DNA of 64,000 bases. Source: Sediminivirga luteola. GTDB lineage: Bacteria > Actinomycetota > Actinomycetes > Actinomycetales > Brevibacteriaceae. Positions 24,609 through 30,100 of this stretch are shown here, in pieces. Made by a program: the position numbers and the translations under genes. The notes under the pieces are model-generated. The model made no database searches, had not been told where the DNA came from, and was given only the letters and a program-made list of their open reading frames with translations. Positions within the stretch are counted from its first letter, which is position 1, and every line of letters begins with the position of its first letter. Location of the stretch: contig NZ_BMFY01000011.1 of NCBI RefSeq assembly GCF_014639315.1, positions 1 to 64,000 on the forward strand, written 5' to 3'.

Positions 24609-25286
24609 GTGACCATCACCGAGAACAGCACCGCGGACGACGCCGCAGGCGGCGCTTCCGACCGGCATCAGGACGACTTGCCGAAGATCCTCCGGCCTCG
24701 GCCCCTGGGCGTGTTCCTGATCGTGGCCAGCGCCATCGGCCTGCTGGCGTCCTTCGAACTCTCGGTCGACAAGATCCGGCTGCTCCGGGATCCGGGTGCG
24801 GTGCTCAGCTGCGATTTCAACCCGCTGTTCTCCTGCAGCTCGGTGATGGGGTACCCGCAGTCGGAGCTCTTCGGGTTCCCGAACCAGTTCATCGGCCTGG
24901 TGGCCTTCGTCTTCCCGCTGCTGCTGGGCGTCCTGCTGGTCGCCGGGACGCAGGTGCCGCGCTGGGTGATGCTCGGCTTGAACATCGGGTTGCTCGGCGG
25001 CGTCGCCTTCGTGACCTTCCTGCAGTACACCTCGCTGTTCGTGATCGGCATCGGCTGCCCCTGGTGCATGGTGGTCTGGGCGGTCACCATCCCGCTGTTC
25101 GTGCTCGTCACGGCGCACAACGCGCTCGCCGGCGGCTTCGGCGCCGGCGTCCAGGGCAACGTGGTCGCCCGGGCGGTGGCGGGAATGCCGCTGAGCATCG
25201 CCGGCCTGTGGCTGTTCGGCGTGGCGATCGCCGTCGTGCTGGCGTTCTGGTCCTACTTCTCCGGCCTTCTGCTCCGCGCCTTCTGA
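24609..25286 (+). CDS. Vitamin K epoxide reductase (VKOR) family membrane protein
   Basis: A membrane quinone-dependent thiol oxidase that should recharge DsbA-like oxidants outside the cytoplasm. Motifs: LSCDFNPLFSCSSVMGYPQS with the loop cysteines, followed by LFGFPNQFIGLVAFVF, and the redox pair CPWC in GIGCPWCMVVWAVTIPLFVL. Four to five membrane segments are visible. I prefer the GTG at 24609, eight bases after AGGA; an ATG at 24600 is also possible. About 225 residues. Divergent from rne. Confidence 0.9.
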   Translation: MTITENSTADDAAGGASDRHQDDLPKILRPRPLGVFLIVASAIGLLASFELSVDKIRLLRDPGAVLSCDFNPLFSCSSVMGYPQSELFGFPNQFIGLVAFVFPLLLGVLLVAGTQVPRWVMLGLNIGLLGGVAFVTFLQYTSLFVIGIGCPWCMVVWAVTIPLFVLVTAHNALAGGFGAGVQGNVVARAVAGMPLSIAGLWLFGVAIAVVLAFWSYFSGLLLRAF

Positions 25287-25326
25287 GCCTTCTGAACCTT
25301 CCGAGCTTTCTGGGTGCTACCGGAAG

Positions 25327-25544
25327 TCAGTCCTCAGGTGAGACGATCCGCCGGACCGCCTCCACCACGTGATCGCGCCGCTCCCGCCGGGACAACCGCC
25401 CCTTGAGTTCGTGGAATTCGGGCGTCGCGGTGGTCCGCACCCGTGCGGTGTGCAGCACCAGGCCCAGGAGCACGTCCGCCGGGAACGCGGCTGTCAGGAC
25501 TCCGTTCCGCTGCGCCTGCCGGATGGCGCGCGCCTTCTTCGCGC
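25327..25544 (-). pseudogene. TetR-family regulator, C-terminal fragment only
   Basis: Read on the minus strand, 25544 to 25327 gives KKARAIRQAQRNGVLTAAFP, ADVLLGLVLHTARVRTTATP, EFHELKGRLSRRERRDHVVE and AVRRIVSPED, then TGA. This is the last third of a TetR ligand-binding domain. The N-terminal HTH and about 120 residues are missing, and the frame runs directly into the SDR fragment that points the other way. There is no start codon for it. Non-functional. Confidence 0.7.
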
Positions 25545-26015
25545 ATGCGCGAACGGCAGACGGGGACGATCGTGAACGTCACCTCGATCGGCGGGAAGTT
25601 CGCCGGACCCTTCGGCGGCTGGTACCACGCCACGAAGTTCGCGGTAGAAGGACTCAGTGACTCCCTGCGTCAGGAGGTCGCGGAATTCGGCGTCCGCGTC
25701 GTGATCGTGGAACCGGGCGCCATCAAGACCGAATGGGGCGATATCGCACTCGACTCCGCCCAGGCCGCCTCCGGACAGGGACCTTACGGAGACAGGGTAC
25801 GGAGAATGTCGGCTGCGATGCGTCAGGACGGCGGCACGATGACCCGCGGCTCGGAACCCGACCTCGTGGCCAGCGTGATCATGAACGCCATACAGGCTCC
25901 GCGCCCGCGGACCAGGTATGTGGTCGGCCATCTTGCCCGGCCCGCGGTCGTCGCACGATGGCTGCTGAGCGACCGGATGATGGATCGCATGTCGGCCCGG
26001 ATGATGGGCGACTGA
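25545..26015 (+). pseudogene. Short-chain dehydrogenase, N-terminally truncated
   Basis: The frame from the ATG at 25545 reads MRERQTGTIVNVTSIGGKFA, then the catalytic YHATK in GGWYHATKFAVEGLSDSLRQ, and VVIVEPGAIKTEWG. The whole Rossmann half with the TGxxxGxG nucleotide-binding motif is missing (about 120 residues). Without it the remaining 156 residues should not bind NAD(P)H. The ATG is an internal codon of the former gene. It abuts the truncated TetR gene at 25544/25545. Confidence 0.75.
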
Positions 26016-26061
26016 GCACAGCGACCCGGCACGCGCGCGATGCGCGGCCGGGTCGCTGCTC
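26014..26061. terminator. Bidirectional terminator between the SDR relic and the phosphatase gene
   Basis: GCGACCCGGC (26021-26030) pairs with GCCGGGTCGC (26046-26055), flanked by GAGCA/TGCTC and topped by CGCGC-GAT-GCGCG. It lies between two convergent reading frames and can serve both. Confidence 0.75.
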
Positions 26062-26088
26062 TTCACGAAGACGGCAGGCGTGTGGCGA

Positions 26089-29000
26089 TCAGCCGGTAGC
26101 GCTGCTCCTGCGGCGCGCCGTCATGAGCGCCGCGACCCCCGCTGCCAGCAGCGCCGCCGCGATCGCGGCCAGGCCGGCCAGCTCGGTGCCGGTACGCGGC
26201 AGCGGCTTCCCGTCACCGCCGGGGCCAGCCTGCTCGTCCTCGCCCGGAGCGCCTGGCCCGCCGTCACCAGCATCGTCACCGGGACTTCCGGGACCCTGCG
26301 TCTCGGTGGGTTCCGGGGTCGCCCCGCCAGTCGGCTCCTCGCCGGGTTCGGTCGGCCCCGGCTCGGTGGGCGCCGGCTCGCTCGGCCCGGGCTCCGTCGG
26401 TCCCGGCTCGGTCGGCTCGCCCGGTTCCGTGGGGGTGGGCGCCGGTTCGCTCGGCTCGGGATCGGGCTGTTCGGCTGCCGCGCGGATGTGCTCCTGCAGC
26501 ACCCGGCCGATGTCCGTGTTGTCCAGGTACGCCCCGCGCACCGGGTCGGTTCCCGTGGCGGCGGCCTCCAGCGCAGCGGCCGCCGGGCCCTGCGCGTAGA
26601 GCGGCACCAGCTGCAGGGTGTGGTAATGCGGGGTGCTGTCGCCGGGCTCGCCGTCGGTGTAGTCGATGAACTCGGCGTCCGGCAGCGTGCCCTGCTCCCC
26701 CGTGATCGGCTCGAAGTCGCCGGACTCCAGCGCGCCGGCGCCCCACAGGTTCCCGGTCTCGTGATCAGAGGTGACGATGACCGTGGTCTCATCCCAGCTG
26801 GACTCCGCCTCGACCCAGTCCACGACCGTCTCGATCGTATCGTGGAAGGCGACCATCTCCTCGATGGTGCGGCCGAGTTCCCCGGCGTGACCGGCGTGGT
26901 CGACCGTCGCAGCCTCCGACATCAGGAAGAAGCCGTCCTCCGAGGCGTTGTTCAGCACGCTGATCGCGGCGGCGGTCATCTCGGACAGCCGCGGGACGTT
27001 GTCCGCCATCGGCGCCGCGAACGGCTCCTCCCGATCCCCGGGGCGATCGTGGAACAGGGTCCCGTCGGTCTGCGCCACTCCCAGGACCCGCTCGGGCGTC
27101 CCGGCCGCGAGCGCCTCGAACTCCCCGGCTGCGAGCGCCTGGAACCCGGCACGCTCGTCCACCAGGGTCCAGTCCGGCAGGCCAGCCGAAGCCGGGTCCC
27201 CGGCGCGCAGGGCGTCCCAGTCGGCCTCGTCGATGTACCGGCTCCAGAACCCGCCGTCCTTGGGCGTGCCGTCGTTGCTGTACTCGGGATGGCCCGTGCC
27301 CATCAGGACGTCCAGGTCCTCGTGGTACAGGAGCTGATCGACGACGCCCTGCGTGTCACGGTCGGTCGTCTGCACCGCGAAGCCGGCGTTGGTGTCGGTC
27401 CAGAACTGCGCCGAGGAGACCAGCCCGGTGGCCAGGCCCGCTTCCGTGGCGACATCCACCATGCCGACAAGCGGCTGCTCGTCAGCGTCGATGCCCAGAT
27501 GGCGGCTGCGGGTCTTCACGCCGGTCGACATCGCGGTCGCGGCGGCCGATGAGTCGGTCACCGTCATCCGGCCTTCAGGATGATCGCGGGTGACGTTCGC
27601 CGGCGAATCCCAGGCGTCGATCTCGGCGTAGTCCCGGCTGCGGATCTCGCCGGTCTCCACCGATACCTGGACTTCGAACTCCTGATACGTCTGGCTGGCC
27701 TCGCTGTCCGAGCCGTGCCCGGTCAGATGGACATTGCCGTCGGCGTCCTGATACGCCGCGACACCGTGCTCCCACAGGCTGGCGACGTCCACGTGGTTGT
27801 ACCCCATCCCGTCGGCGACCAGCAGGATGACGTTGGTGCGGCCCTCCCCGGGAACCGGGACGGTCGGCTCGGGTTCGCCCGGCTCCTGTGCTGCGGCGCG
27901 GATGTGCGCGTGAACGACCTCCGCGATGTCGGTGTTGTTCACATAGGCCCCACGCACTTCGTCCTCCCCGCGCGCGGCGTCCGCGAGGGCCTGCGCCGCC
28001 GCGCCGTGGGCGTAGAGCGGCACCAGCTGATGCGTGTGATAGTGCGGGATCTCCGGGTTGCGGGCCGCATCGGTGAAGTCCGTGAACTCCGCTTCGGGAA
28101 GCTCACCGCGCACGCCGGTGATCGGCTCGAACTCGCCCGAGTCGAAGGTGCCGGTACCCCACAGGTTCCCGGTCTCATGGTCCGAGGTGACGATGACCGT
28201 GGTCTCGTCCCAGCTGGACTCCGCCTCGACCCAGTCCACCACGCTCTCGATCATGCGGTTGAACTCGACCATCTCCTCGATGGTGCGGCCCAGCTCGCCG
28301 CGGTGGCCGGCGTGGTCCACGGTGGCGGCCTCCGACATCAGGAAGAATCCTTCCTCGGAGGCGTTGTCCAGCACGTTCAGGGCGGCCGCCGTCATCTCGG
28401 ACAGCCGCGGGACGTTGTCCGCCATCGGCGCCGCGAACGGCTCGTCCCGCTCCCCCGGGCGGTCGAAGAACAGCGTTCCCGAGGACGGCGCCAGGCCGAA
28501 GACCTTCTCAGGGGTCTCCCCGCTGGCAAGCGCCTGGAACTCGCTGCGATCCTCGACCAGGGTCCAGTCCGCGACCCCCTCGGCCTCGGCTTCGCCGCGC
28601 AGCGCTGCCAGGACCTCCTCGGAGACGTAGCTGTAGCTCGGTGCCGCATTGGGCGTGCCGTCGTTGTGATACTCGGGGTGGCCGGATCCCATGACCACGT
28701 TCAGGTCCTCGTGCTCCAGCAGCTGGGAGATGATCCCCTCGGTGTCCCCGTCGTCGGTGTGCACGGCGAATCCGGCGGAGGTGTCGGTCCAGAAACGTGC
28801 CGAGCTGACCACGCCGGTGGCCATACCGGCCTCGGTCGCCACGTCGACCATGTCCTCCAGGGGCTCGCCGTTGCGATCGATCCCGAGGTAGCCGCCGCGG
28901 GTGCGCACCCCGGTTGACATCGCGGTGGCCGCCGCGGCCGAGTCCGTCACCAGCGTCTCGTGGTCGGGGTTCTCGCGGGTGATGTGCCGCGGGCTGGCCC

Positions 29001-29370
29001 AGGGGTCCACCTCGGAGTGCGGGGCGCTCCAGATGTAGCCGGTGTCCTGCCCCAGCTGGACCTCGAAGTCCTGGTACACCTGGCTGGCCTCGCTGTCCGA
29101 GCCGTGCCCGGTCAGATGGATGTTGTCGTCCGCGTCCTGGTAGGCGGCGACGCCGTGTTCCCACAGGCTGGCGACGTCGACGTGGTTGTACCCCATCCCG
29201 TCGGCGATCAGCAGGATGACGTTCGTCTTACCGTCCGCCGCGGCCTGCGCGGCCGCCGGGCCCGAGAGGCCGGGCAGTCCTGAGGCGGCGACGAGCCCCG
29301 CGGCCGCGGCGATGCCGGCCAGGCGAACGGATGGACGGGTGGGTGGACGCGTGGAAGCGCGTGCTGACAC
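26089..29370 (-). CDS. Cell-wall-anchored protein with two tandem alkaline phosphatase domains
   Basis: A 1093-residue secreted phosphomonoesterase. A signal peptide (SVRLAGIAAAAGLVAASGLP, ending near AAAQAAADG) is followed by two complete alkaline phosphatase domains, residues 49 to about 494 and 512 to about 965. Each has VILLxADGMGYNHVDVASLW (metal Asp), VTDS(A/S)AAATAMSTG with the nucleophile Ser144 or Ser607, SEAATVDHAGHxGELG, TSDHETGNLWG and PHYHTxQLVPLYA. A Pro/Glu/Thr-rich stalk then leads to the sortase signal LPRTG (1057-1061), a membrane helix and Arg-rich tail. The start is GTG at 29370 after AAGGGGA. The family normally carries one domain. It should free phosphate from organic esters at the wall. 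A single GTTCACC site upstream hints at PhoP control. Confidence 0.93.
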   Translation of the reverse strand: MSARASTRPPTRPSVRLAGIAAAAGLVAASGLPGLSGPAAAQAAADGKTNVILLIADGMGYNHVDVASLWEHGVAAYQDADDNIHLTGHGSDSEASQVYQDFEVQLGQDTGYIWSAPHSEVDPWASPRHITRENPDHETLVTDSAAAATAMSTGVRTRGGYLGIDRNGEPLEDMVDVATEAGMATGVVSSARFWTDTSAGFAVHTDDGDTEGIISQLLEHEDLNVVMGSGHPEYHNDGTPNAAPSYSYVSEEVLAALRGEAEAEGVADWTLVEDRSEFQALASGETPEKVFGLAPSSGTLFFDRPGERDEPFAAPMADNVPRLSEMTAAALNVLDNASEEGFFLMSEAATVDHAGHRGELGRTIEEMVEFNRMIESVVDWVEAESSWDETTVIVTSDHETGNLWGTGTFDSGEFEPITGVRGELPEAEFTDFTDAARNPEIPHYHTHQLVPLYAHGAAAQALADAARGEDEVRGAYVNNTDIAEVVHAHIRAAAQEPGEPEPTVPVPGEGRTNVILLVADGMGYNHVDVASLWEHGVAAYQDADGNVHLTGHGSDSEASQTYQEFEVQVSVETGEIRSRDYAEIDAWDSPANVTRDHPEGRMTVTDSSAAATAMSTGVKTRSRHLGIDADEQPLVGMVDVATEAGLATGLVSSAQFWTDTNAGFAVQTTDRDTQGVVDQLLYHEDLDVLMGTGHPEYSNDGTPKDGGFWSRYIDEADWDALRAGDPASAGLPDWTLVDERAGFQALAAGEFEALAAGTPERVLGVAQTDGTLFHDRPGDREEPFAAPMADNVPRLSEMTAAAISVLNNASEDGFFLMSEAATVDHAGHAGELGRTIEEMVAFHDTIETVVDWVEAESSWDETTVIVTSDHETGNLWGAGALESGDFEPITGEQGTLPDAEFIDYTDGEPGDSTPHYHTLQLVPLYAQGPAAAALEAAATGTDPVRGAYLDNTDIGRVLQEHIRAAAEQPDPEPSEPAPTPTEPGEPTEPGPTEPGPSEPAPTEPGPTEPGEEPTGGATPEPTETQGPGSPGDDAGDGGPGAPGEDEQAGPGGDGKPLPRTGTELAGLAAIAAALLAAGVAALMTARRRSSATG
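26473..29226 (-). repeat. Internal duplication of the alkaline phosphatase unit
   Basis: Two diverged direct copies of roughly 1.35 kb lie head to tail within one gene: about 27889-29226 (first domain) and about 26473-27837 (second). The offset is 1389 bases at the domain start and 1416 near its end, so copy two has gained 27 bases, visible as a repeated GEFEALAAGT-type stretch. Long runs such as GYNHVDVASLWEHGVAAYQD and PFAAPMADNVPRLSEMTAAA are identical between copies. Confidence 0.9.
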
Positions 29371-29426
29371 GGGGATTCCCCTTACGGGCTCGACTGCGAT
29401 GACCGCAGTTCACTAGACCAGCGGCC

Positions 29427-29433
29427 GGTGAAC
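29427..29433 (-). promoter_or_regulatory. Possible PhoP half-site upstream of the phosphatase gene
   Basis: On the minus strand GTTCACC lies 57 bases upstream of the GTG. Actinobacterial PHO boxes consist of 11-base direct repeats starting GTTCACC; a second repeat unit is not seen, so this is weak. The rest of 29371-29584 shows no gene. Confidence 0.25.
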
Positions 29434-29584
29434 CCGCTGTGAGGCGGACGCGAACGCAAGGCAACCCCGGGATGACAGCAAGGTGTCTCGTATCACATTC
29501 CGAGACCAGAGCGCGTCTCACAGGCGGCCGCTCGTCCCCCGTGTGGCCTGGCGACCGTCCTGGCCGGCCGCTGGGCGCACGCGC

Positions 29585-29642
29585 GAAGGCCCGCGGCCAC
29601 CGGCGCCCTGGAACGGGGATCTTCCGGCGGTCGCGGGCCTTC
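29585..29642 (-). terminator. Terminator hairpin after ndk
   Basis: GAAGGCCCGCG (29585-29595) pairs perfectly with CGCGGGCCTTC (29632-29642), and the inner GCCACCG/CGGCGGT stretch adds further pairs. Located about 40 bases after the ndk stop in the direction of transcription. Confidence 0.7.
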
Positions 29643-29680
29643 ACGGAGCGCGGGTCTTCAAGAGAAGAGCCCGTGCAGTA

Positions 29681-30100
29681 TCAGGCGGCGGGGAACCAGA
29701 TGCCGATCTCACGGTCGGCGGACTCAGGCGAATCCGAGCCGTGGACGAGGTTCTTCTGCACCTTCTCCCCCCAGTCGCGGCCCAGATCGCCGCGGATGGT
29801 TCCCGGCGCCGCCGTGGTGGGGTCGGTGGTGCCGGCCAGGGAGCGGAATCCCGCGATGACCCCGTTCCCGGAGGCGACGAGCGCCACGAGAGGGCCCTCC
29901 TCCATGAACGACACGAGCGGCTCGTAGAACGGCTTGCCCTCGTGCTCGGCGTAGTGCGCGGCCAGCTCCTCGCGCGTGGCACGGCGCAGCTCCAGCCGCT
30001 CGATGACGTAGCCCTTGGCTTCGATCCGGCCGATGATCTCCCCGACCAGGCCCCGGGCCACGCCGTCCGGCTTGATCAGGATGAGGGTCTTCTCGCTCAC
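29681..30100 (-). CDS. ndk: Nucleoside diphosphate kinase
   Basis: Ndk moves the terminal phosphate from ATP to other nucleoside diphosphates through a phospho-histidine. The 139-residue product begins SEKTLILIKPDGVARGLVGE and has the active site NLVHGSDSPESADREIGIWF with the catalytic His. Normal length and complete. It lies 125 bases after the DUF4233 gene; a GTGCGGCAGCCGCGCAC hairpin sits in that gap. Part of the ileS-folC-DUF4233-ndk group conserved in Actinobacteria. Confidence 0.98.
   Translation of the reverse strand: MSEKTLILIKPDGVARGLVGEIIGRIEAKGYVIERLELRRATREELAAHYAEHEGKPFYEPLVSFMEEGPLVALVASGNGVIAGFRSLAGTTDPTTAAPGTIRGDLGRDWGEKVQKNLVHGSDSPESADREIGIWFPAA

Follow-up and report, generated by a model that had tools for sequence, protein, structure and literature searches.

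Among bacterial regulator–target pairs, deletion pseudogenes are known in which a single event strips away the promoter together with both gene starts and leaves behind tails that end in their native stop codons. The locus described here lies in a 64,000-nucleotide stretch of Sediminivirga luteola DNA, analyzed as a whole (the window), and carries a relic that is the same in kind as these pseudogenes; its joint can be mapped to approximately four bases and is palindromic. The titles and abstract openings retrieved from the literature held nothing bearing on this case, which is not a claim that it is absent from print. Its closest intact counterparts are divergent pairs of a TetR gene and an SDR gene in Nakamurella aerolata (locus L032), an uncultured Nocardioides (L035), Knoellia koreensis (L037), a Hamadaea sp. 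(L087), and a Cryobacterium sp. (L107). These pairs have in common with the window the C-terminal family of the TetR, the subfamily of the SDR, and the head-to-head order of the genes, and differ from it in retaining the shared upstream region, which in the window has very probably been deleted. An intact pair would constitute a local switch composed of a TetR_C_21 repressor and a PRK06182-like SDR, transcribed apart from a shared promoter region, and by analogy with TetR regulators in general, the repressor would act on the divergent enzyme gene and on its own gene. We consider it very likely that the window preserves the scar of one deletion of ~800–870 bp in such a pair. The features of the locus, in window coordinates, are as follows.

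24636–25286, plus strand: VKOR-family gene, the left neighbor, native to the locus (PF07884, E 2.3e-37)
25287–29680: lineage-specific stretch of 4,394 bp between VKOR and ndk, containing the relic and an alkaline phosphatase gene
25327–25543, minus strand: TetR C-terminal remnant (TetR_C_21, PF17926), from the Pfam profile and tblastn to intact TetRs (L032, L035, L037, and L019–L022)
25443–26015, plus strand: 190-aa ORF apparently created by the joint, from the ORF list
25538–25553: perfect 16-bp palindrome centered on the joint, with its left arm on the TetR side and its right arm on the SDR side
25542–25545: probable deletion joint, with ~800–870 bp missing, from codon spacing relative to intact pairs
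25545–26015, plus strand: SDR C-terminal remnant of a PRK06182-like classical SDR, with the Ser and YxxxK region and the native stop, from Pfam, NCBIfam, and alignment

The original prediction, made from the letters of the DNA alone, was that TetR and SDR C-terminal fragments meet head to head, each lacking its first 120 or so residues. On the minus strand, the TetR remnant lies in a frame of 83 codons (25578–25330) followed by its native stop codon at 25329–25327. PF17926 covers remnant residues 5–77, equivalent to profile positions 38–111 of 111 (E 5.3e-11), and this match, although partial, scores 43.2 bits and so exceeds the curated cut-off (26.2). No Pfam match to TetR_N (HTH) was detected in the remnant at E ≤ 1; both the HTH domain and the initial third of the ligand domain are missing, a loss of at least 114 N-terminal residues, judged by eye from the L032 protein. 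The frame is open as far as 25578, with unconvincing homology past ~25543, and its earliest start-like codon is codon 36, none being present among the first 35. Neither a stop codon nor a frameshift interrupts the tail, and a search of solved structures with the remnant returned a single weak match (2d6y, E 0.012). What remains is a piece of a TetR_C_21 family member and not a working regulator of that family.

The codons of the SDR remnant on the plus strand run from 25545 to 26012 and are followed by a stop codon ending at 26015. The adh_short profile matches the tail only from profile position 120–123 (E 1.9e-17 or 4.2e-17, depending on which of two frame versions is used), and NCBIfam PRK06182 aligns with it over positions 121–273 of 274 (E 1.8e-57), with a score of 194.7 bits that is below the full-length cut-off of 305. 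Alignment to the SDRs of L032, L035, and L037 indicates that 118–120 N-terminal residues are missing. The Pfam and NCBIfam matches thus bear out the two predicted fragments, whose predicted meeting point was correct to approximately three bases, and the estimated losses agree with the ~120 residues proposed for each. It had further been proposed that the SDR relic keeps the YxxxK site but no cofactor fold, and this also holds: the catalytic Ser and YxxxK are present (VTSIGG from 25578 and YHATK at 25623–25637), and the N-terminal Rossmann half is gone, with neither the TGxxxGIG cofactor motif nor NNAG present in the remnant. Among 78 relatives, 44 N-terminal alignment columns with at least 90% conservation, including those of TGASSGIG and NNAG, are absent from the relic, and 43 of the 43 columns conserved to the same degree in the tail are retained. 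Solved-structure searches with the SDR tail gave general SDR matches and nothing more specific.

As in the TetR tail, neither a stop codon nor a frameshift is found in the SDR tail, and the undecayed state of the two tails, together with the full retention of conserved SDR columns, suggests that the relic was formed recently. The SDR tail scores 225.9 bits compared with a median of 236.3 for the relatives, and because 12 of the 78 relatives score lower still, conservation alone is no proof of recent loss. Third-position GC is 0.81 in the SDR tail, 0.89 in the TetR tail, and 0.88–0.95 in three neighboring genes; the lower value of the SDR tail weakly supports a foreign origin, for the SDR alone.

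The joint places the SDR tail in a frame that opens at 25407 and offers candidate starts at 25443 (GTG), 25545 (ATG), and 25572. From the first of these, the 190-aa ORF passes through 34 codons antisense to the TetR remnant before entering the SDR tail, and it is probably a product of the joint rather than a real gene. By eye, no Shine–Dalgarno-like sequence precedes 25443, 25545, or 25572, and no evident ribosome-binding site lies before the candidate starts of either tail. Automatic annotation may name this ORF a dehydrogenase despite its absent cofactor-binding half.

The original prediction hinged on the existence of relatives with an intact divergent pair of these families, and such relatives were found. 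Scanned against 84,980 species genomes, the SDR tail yielded 80 loci that were kept and named, and five of these encode a PF17926-type TetR divergent from a close SDR, the SDRs being 49–59% identical to the window SDR over the tail. By tblastn, the window TetR fragment matches the SDR's divergent neighbor in L035 (51%), L037 (45%), and L032 (43%), and weakly in L087 (46% over 37 aa, E 9e-5). The L107 pair was added by a TetR profile, and its TetR shares 44% identity with the L032 TetR, a protein that contains TetR_N plus TetR_C_21. Because six proteins, those of L032, L035, L037, L087, and L020 among them, went into the profile, its scores for these loci are not independent, and those for L107 and L021 are; tblastn with the window TetR provides the independent test for L032, L035, L037, L087, L020, and L021. 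Over 96 loci, the profile gave seven strong scores (at least 196 bits) and 17 weak ones (below 30 bits), the latter being other types of TetR, several of them not divergent.

A search from the TetR side detected 11 loci beyond the window that match the fragment at E ≤ 1e-3 (L019–L022 and L145–L151), and in eight of them a divergent SDR-type gene adjoins the TetR (L020, L021, L145–L147, and L149–L151). The SDRs of these eight loci are more distant from the window SDR: those of L020 and L021 are 31–34% identical to it, and the others are 32–42% identical to the L032 SDR, the match in L151 being partial (E 5e-8). No SDR match was found beside the TetR in L022 and L148. In L019/L166, an SDR that is 54% identical to the L032 SDR is located ~1.6 kb from the TetR with two other ORFs between; at positions 1517–3106 of L166 (genome G257), the ORFs that separate the divergent SDR from the TetR_C_21 gene appear by eye to be one alpha/beta-hydrolase-like and one SnoaL-type-like. 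At 14 further SDR loci (L152–L165, flanks of up to 1.5 kb), no match to the L032 TetR was found, a null result that counts against a general pairing of this type of SDR with this type of TetR. Searches at class and order level for a closer pair reached TetR identities of at most 49% and SDR identities of at most 58%. A pair encoded in a genome of the same family (G019, locus L005, 2447–3130 and 1489–2325) resembles that of the window in its divergent TetR/SDR layout and its related SDR (49% identity, the highest in the family), and differs from it in that the TetR belongs to the C-terminal family TetR_C_34 (PF17929); we rejected it as the intact parent for that reason, and it represents an analogous pair with another regulator.

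In the SDR tree, which, like the SDR profile, included 78 of the 80 named loci (SDR length 260–300 aa) and which carries no information on the history of the TetR, the window SDR is found in a clade of eight rows (100/99) together with L030, L031, L032, L033, L035, L037, and L038. Its sisters are two Nesterenkonia sequences, L030 and L031 (100/98). A window-type TetR is absent from the 1.3 kb upstream of the SDR in L030, L031, L033, and L038, so the TetR/SDR pair is not universal even inside this clade. The ORFs upstream of the Nesterenkonia SDRs include an apparent inorganic pyrophosphatase, identified by eye.

The joint was mapped using two reference points, the TetR motif ANxAK, followed by the stretch that the window retains, and the internal Met (MRxQ) at which the SDR tail starts. 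The distance from the conserved TetR Lys codon (25534–25536) to the SDR Met codon (25545–25547) is 8 bases in the window compared with 810 in L087, 818 in L035, 864 in L032, and 876 in L037, the four intact pairs of this measurement, with L107 outside it. A single deletion of ~800–870 bp accounts for this difference and for both truncations, in support of the original proposal of one deletion across a divergent promoter; unrelated insertions had been named as the contrary case, and neither fragment contains a separate insertion between the parts. In plus-strand reading, the conserved Asn codon of the TetR motif is GTT in each of the four intact pairs and GCA at 25543–25545 in the window, and the base preceding the SDR ATG is C in the window, as it is in L032 and L087. 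We place the joint within 25542–25545, with an overlap of at most 1–2 bases; since the intact pairs are only ~43–59% identical, this placement, good to about four bases, relies on homologous codons rather than on identity of the DNA. Such a deletion would have taken everything between the two genes along with the half of the TetR that binds DNA and the half of the SDR that binds the cofactor, and would have left two presumably nonfunctional tails with native stop codons. With the promoter region and both gene halves hit at once, regulator and enzyme would have been lost in one step.

The palindrome TTCGCGCATGCGCGAA at 25538–25553 has six bases on the TetR side of the joint and the remainder on the SDR side. 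Three perfect palindromes with arms of at least eight bases are present in the 64-kb window compared with 2.85 expected (mean of 20 Markov shuffles), so palindromes of this size are not rare. What is rare is for one to fall on the joint: density-based arithmetic on this post hoc observation gives a chance of ~3 in 10,000 for a palindrome center within three bases of the joint. The SDR tails of L035 and L037 open with ATGCGCGAG or ATGCGCGCG, and much of the right arm is accordingly native coding sequence. The palindrome might be the footprint of the mechanism: during replication, a short arm in the TetR gene (TTCGCG) would have paired across the intervening divergent region with an inverted one in the SDR gene (CGCGAA), and with the loop of ~0.8 kb lost, the two would have been fused. 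We regard this as very improbable. If it were true, and such arms were common in divergent pairs, losing the whole control region would be a favored route to the joint loss of regulator and target.

The genomic site adds a point that goes beyond the original prediction, which had missed both the palindrome and the foreign character of the 4.4-kb stretch. In all 24 of the same-family genomes searched, ndk comes directly after VKOR, arranged in the same way, with a gap of 30–416 bp (median ~113), whereas the gap in the window is 4,394 bp, an insertion relative to the family. The TetR/SDR pair thus came in with a lineage-specific stretch or entered one, and it is not native to the site. No match to the TetR fragment was found in 36 same-family genomes, so an intact parent could not be located nearby. 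A search of 25200–29750 for inverted repeats of at least 14 bases, the one type of repeat searched, revealed no obvious marking of the ends of the inserted stretch. On the reading that we favor, the pair came with a stretch that this lineage gained between VKOR and ndk, the deletion then being probably later than the insertion, and recent.

The same stretch encodes an alkaline phosphatase (26089–29370, minus strand; 1,093 aa) with two tandem phosphatase domains, recognized by Pfam as two Alk_phosphatase stretches and sharing 69% identity in the genome search. Read by eye, its C-terminus consists of LPRTG followed by hydrophobic and basic segments, which we take to be a sortase-signal-like sequence. 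A single-match homolog is found in two of the 24 other same-family genomes (G006 and G007), and contig C6 of the present genome carries a third phosphatase copy.

Neither an intact copy of the pair nor its missing halves were recognized elsewhere in the genome, which is represented by one draft assembly of 45 contigs, estimated to be 99.17% complete with 0.39% contamination. The N-terminal half of the SDR gave 35 matches (best 43%) and that of the TetR eight (best 48% over 52 aa), and the matches listed are all in open frames of at least 198 codons without stops, as expected of paralogs. These results bear on whether the pair is in fact intact in the organism, ~0.8 kb having been dropped in sequencing or assembly, e.g., at the palindrome. 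Tails that lack stops and frameshifts and keep every conserved SDR residue are what an intact gene would show, and the palindrome does mark the joint. Assembly collapse, however, normally requires a repeat longer than this one, the joint is deep inside a 135-kb contig, the missing halves are on no other contig, and the completeness, low contamination, and contig number of the assembly also speak against such an artifact, which we consider very unlikely. Still harder to credit is a junction of the tails of two unrelated genes by two separate rearrangements. The SDRs nearest in the tree do lack a window-type TetR, as this would predict, but the same families occur in the same divergent order at five of the 80 named loci, eight of the 11 TetR-derived loci are also divergent, with more distant SDRs, and two events would need to recreate both the pairing of the families and their head-to-head arrangement.

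Acceptance of a single deletion leaves the question of when it happened. The stretch could have been acquired already broken, after a deletion in the donor that preceded the VKOR–ndk insertion; the whole 4.4 kb is foreign to the site, and with the TetR not found in the 36 same-family genomes, nothing points to an intact pair in the family. Against this, the searches made brought no other broken copy to light and the tails show little decay, and although the two orders of events look alike with one genome, we judge acquisition in the broken state to be unlikely. The in-frame ATG at the joint and the retention of all 43 conserved columns could also be read as signs that the SDR tail is still produced, from ATG 25545 or GTG 25443 for example, with a function of its own. 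Such a product would be devoid of the cofactor-binding half, its original promoter would be lost, and its possible starts have no Shine–Dalgarno-like sequence by eye, and we attach almost no probability to it.

A single deletion in a divergent TetR/SDR pair, the reading that we favor, would make this locus a clean, mapped case of a regulator and its likely target lost in one step, within a lineage-specific insertion. As the deletion relic of a known gene pair, it would be biologically ordinary and would leave what is known of TetR regulators and SDR enzymes unchanged.
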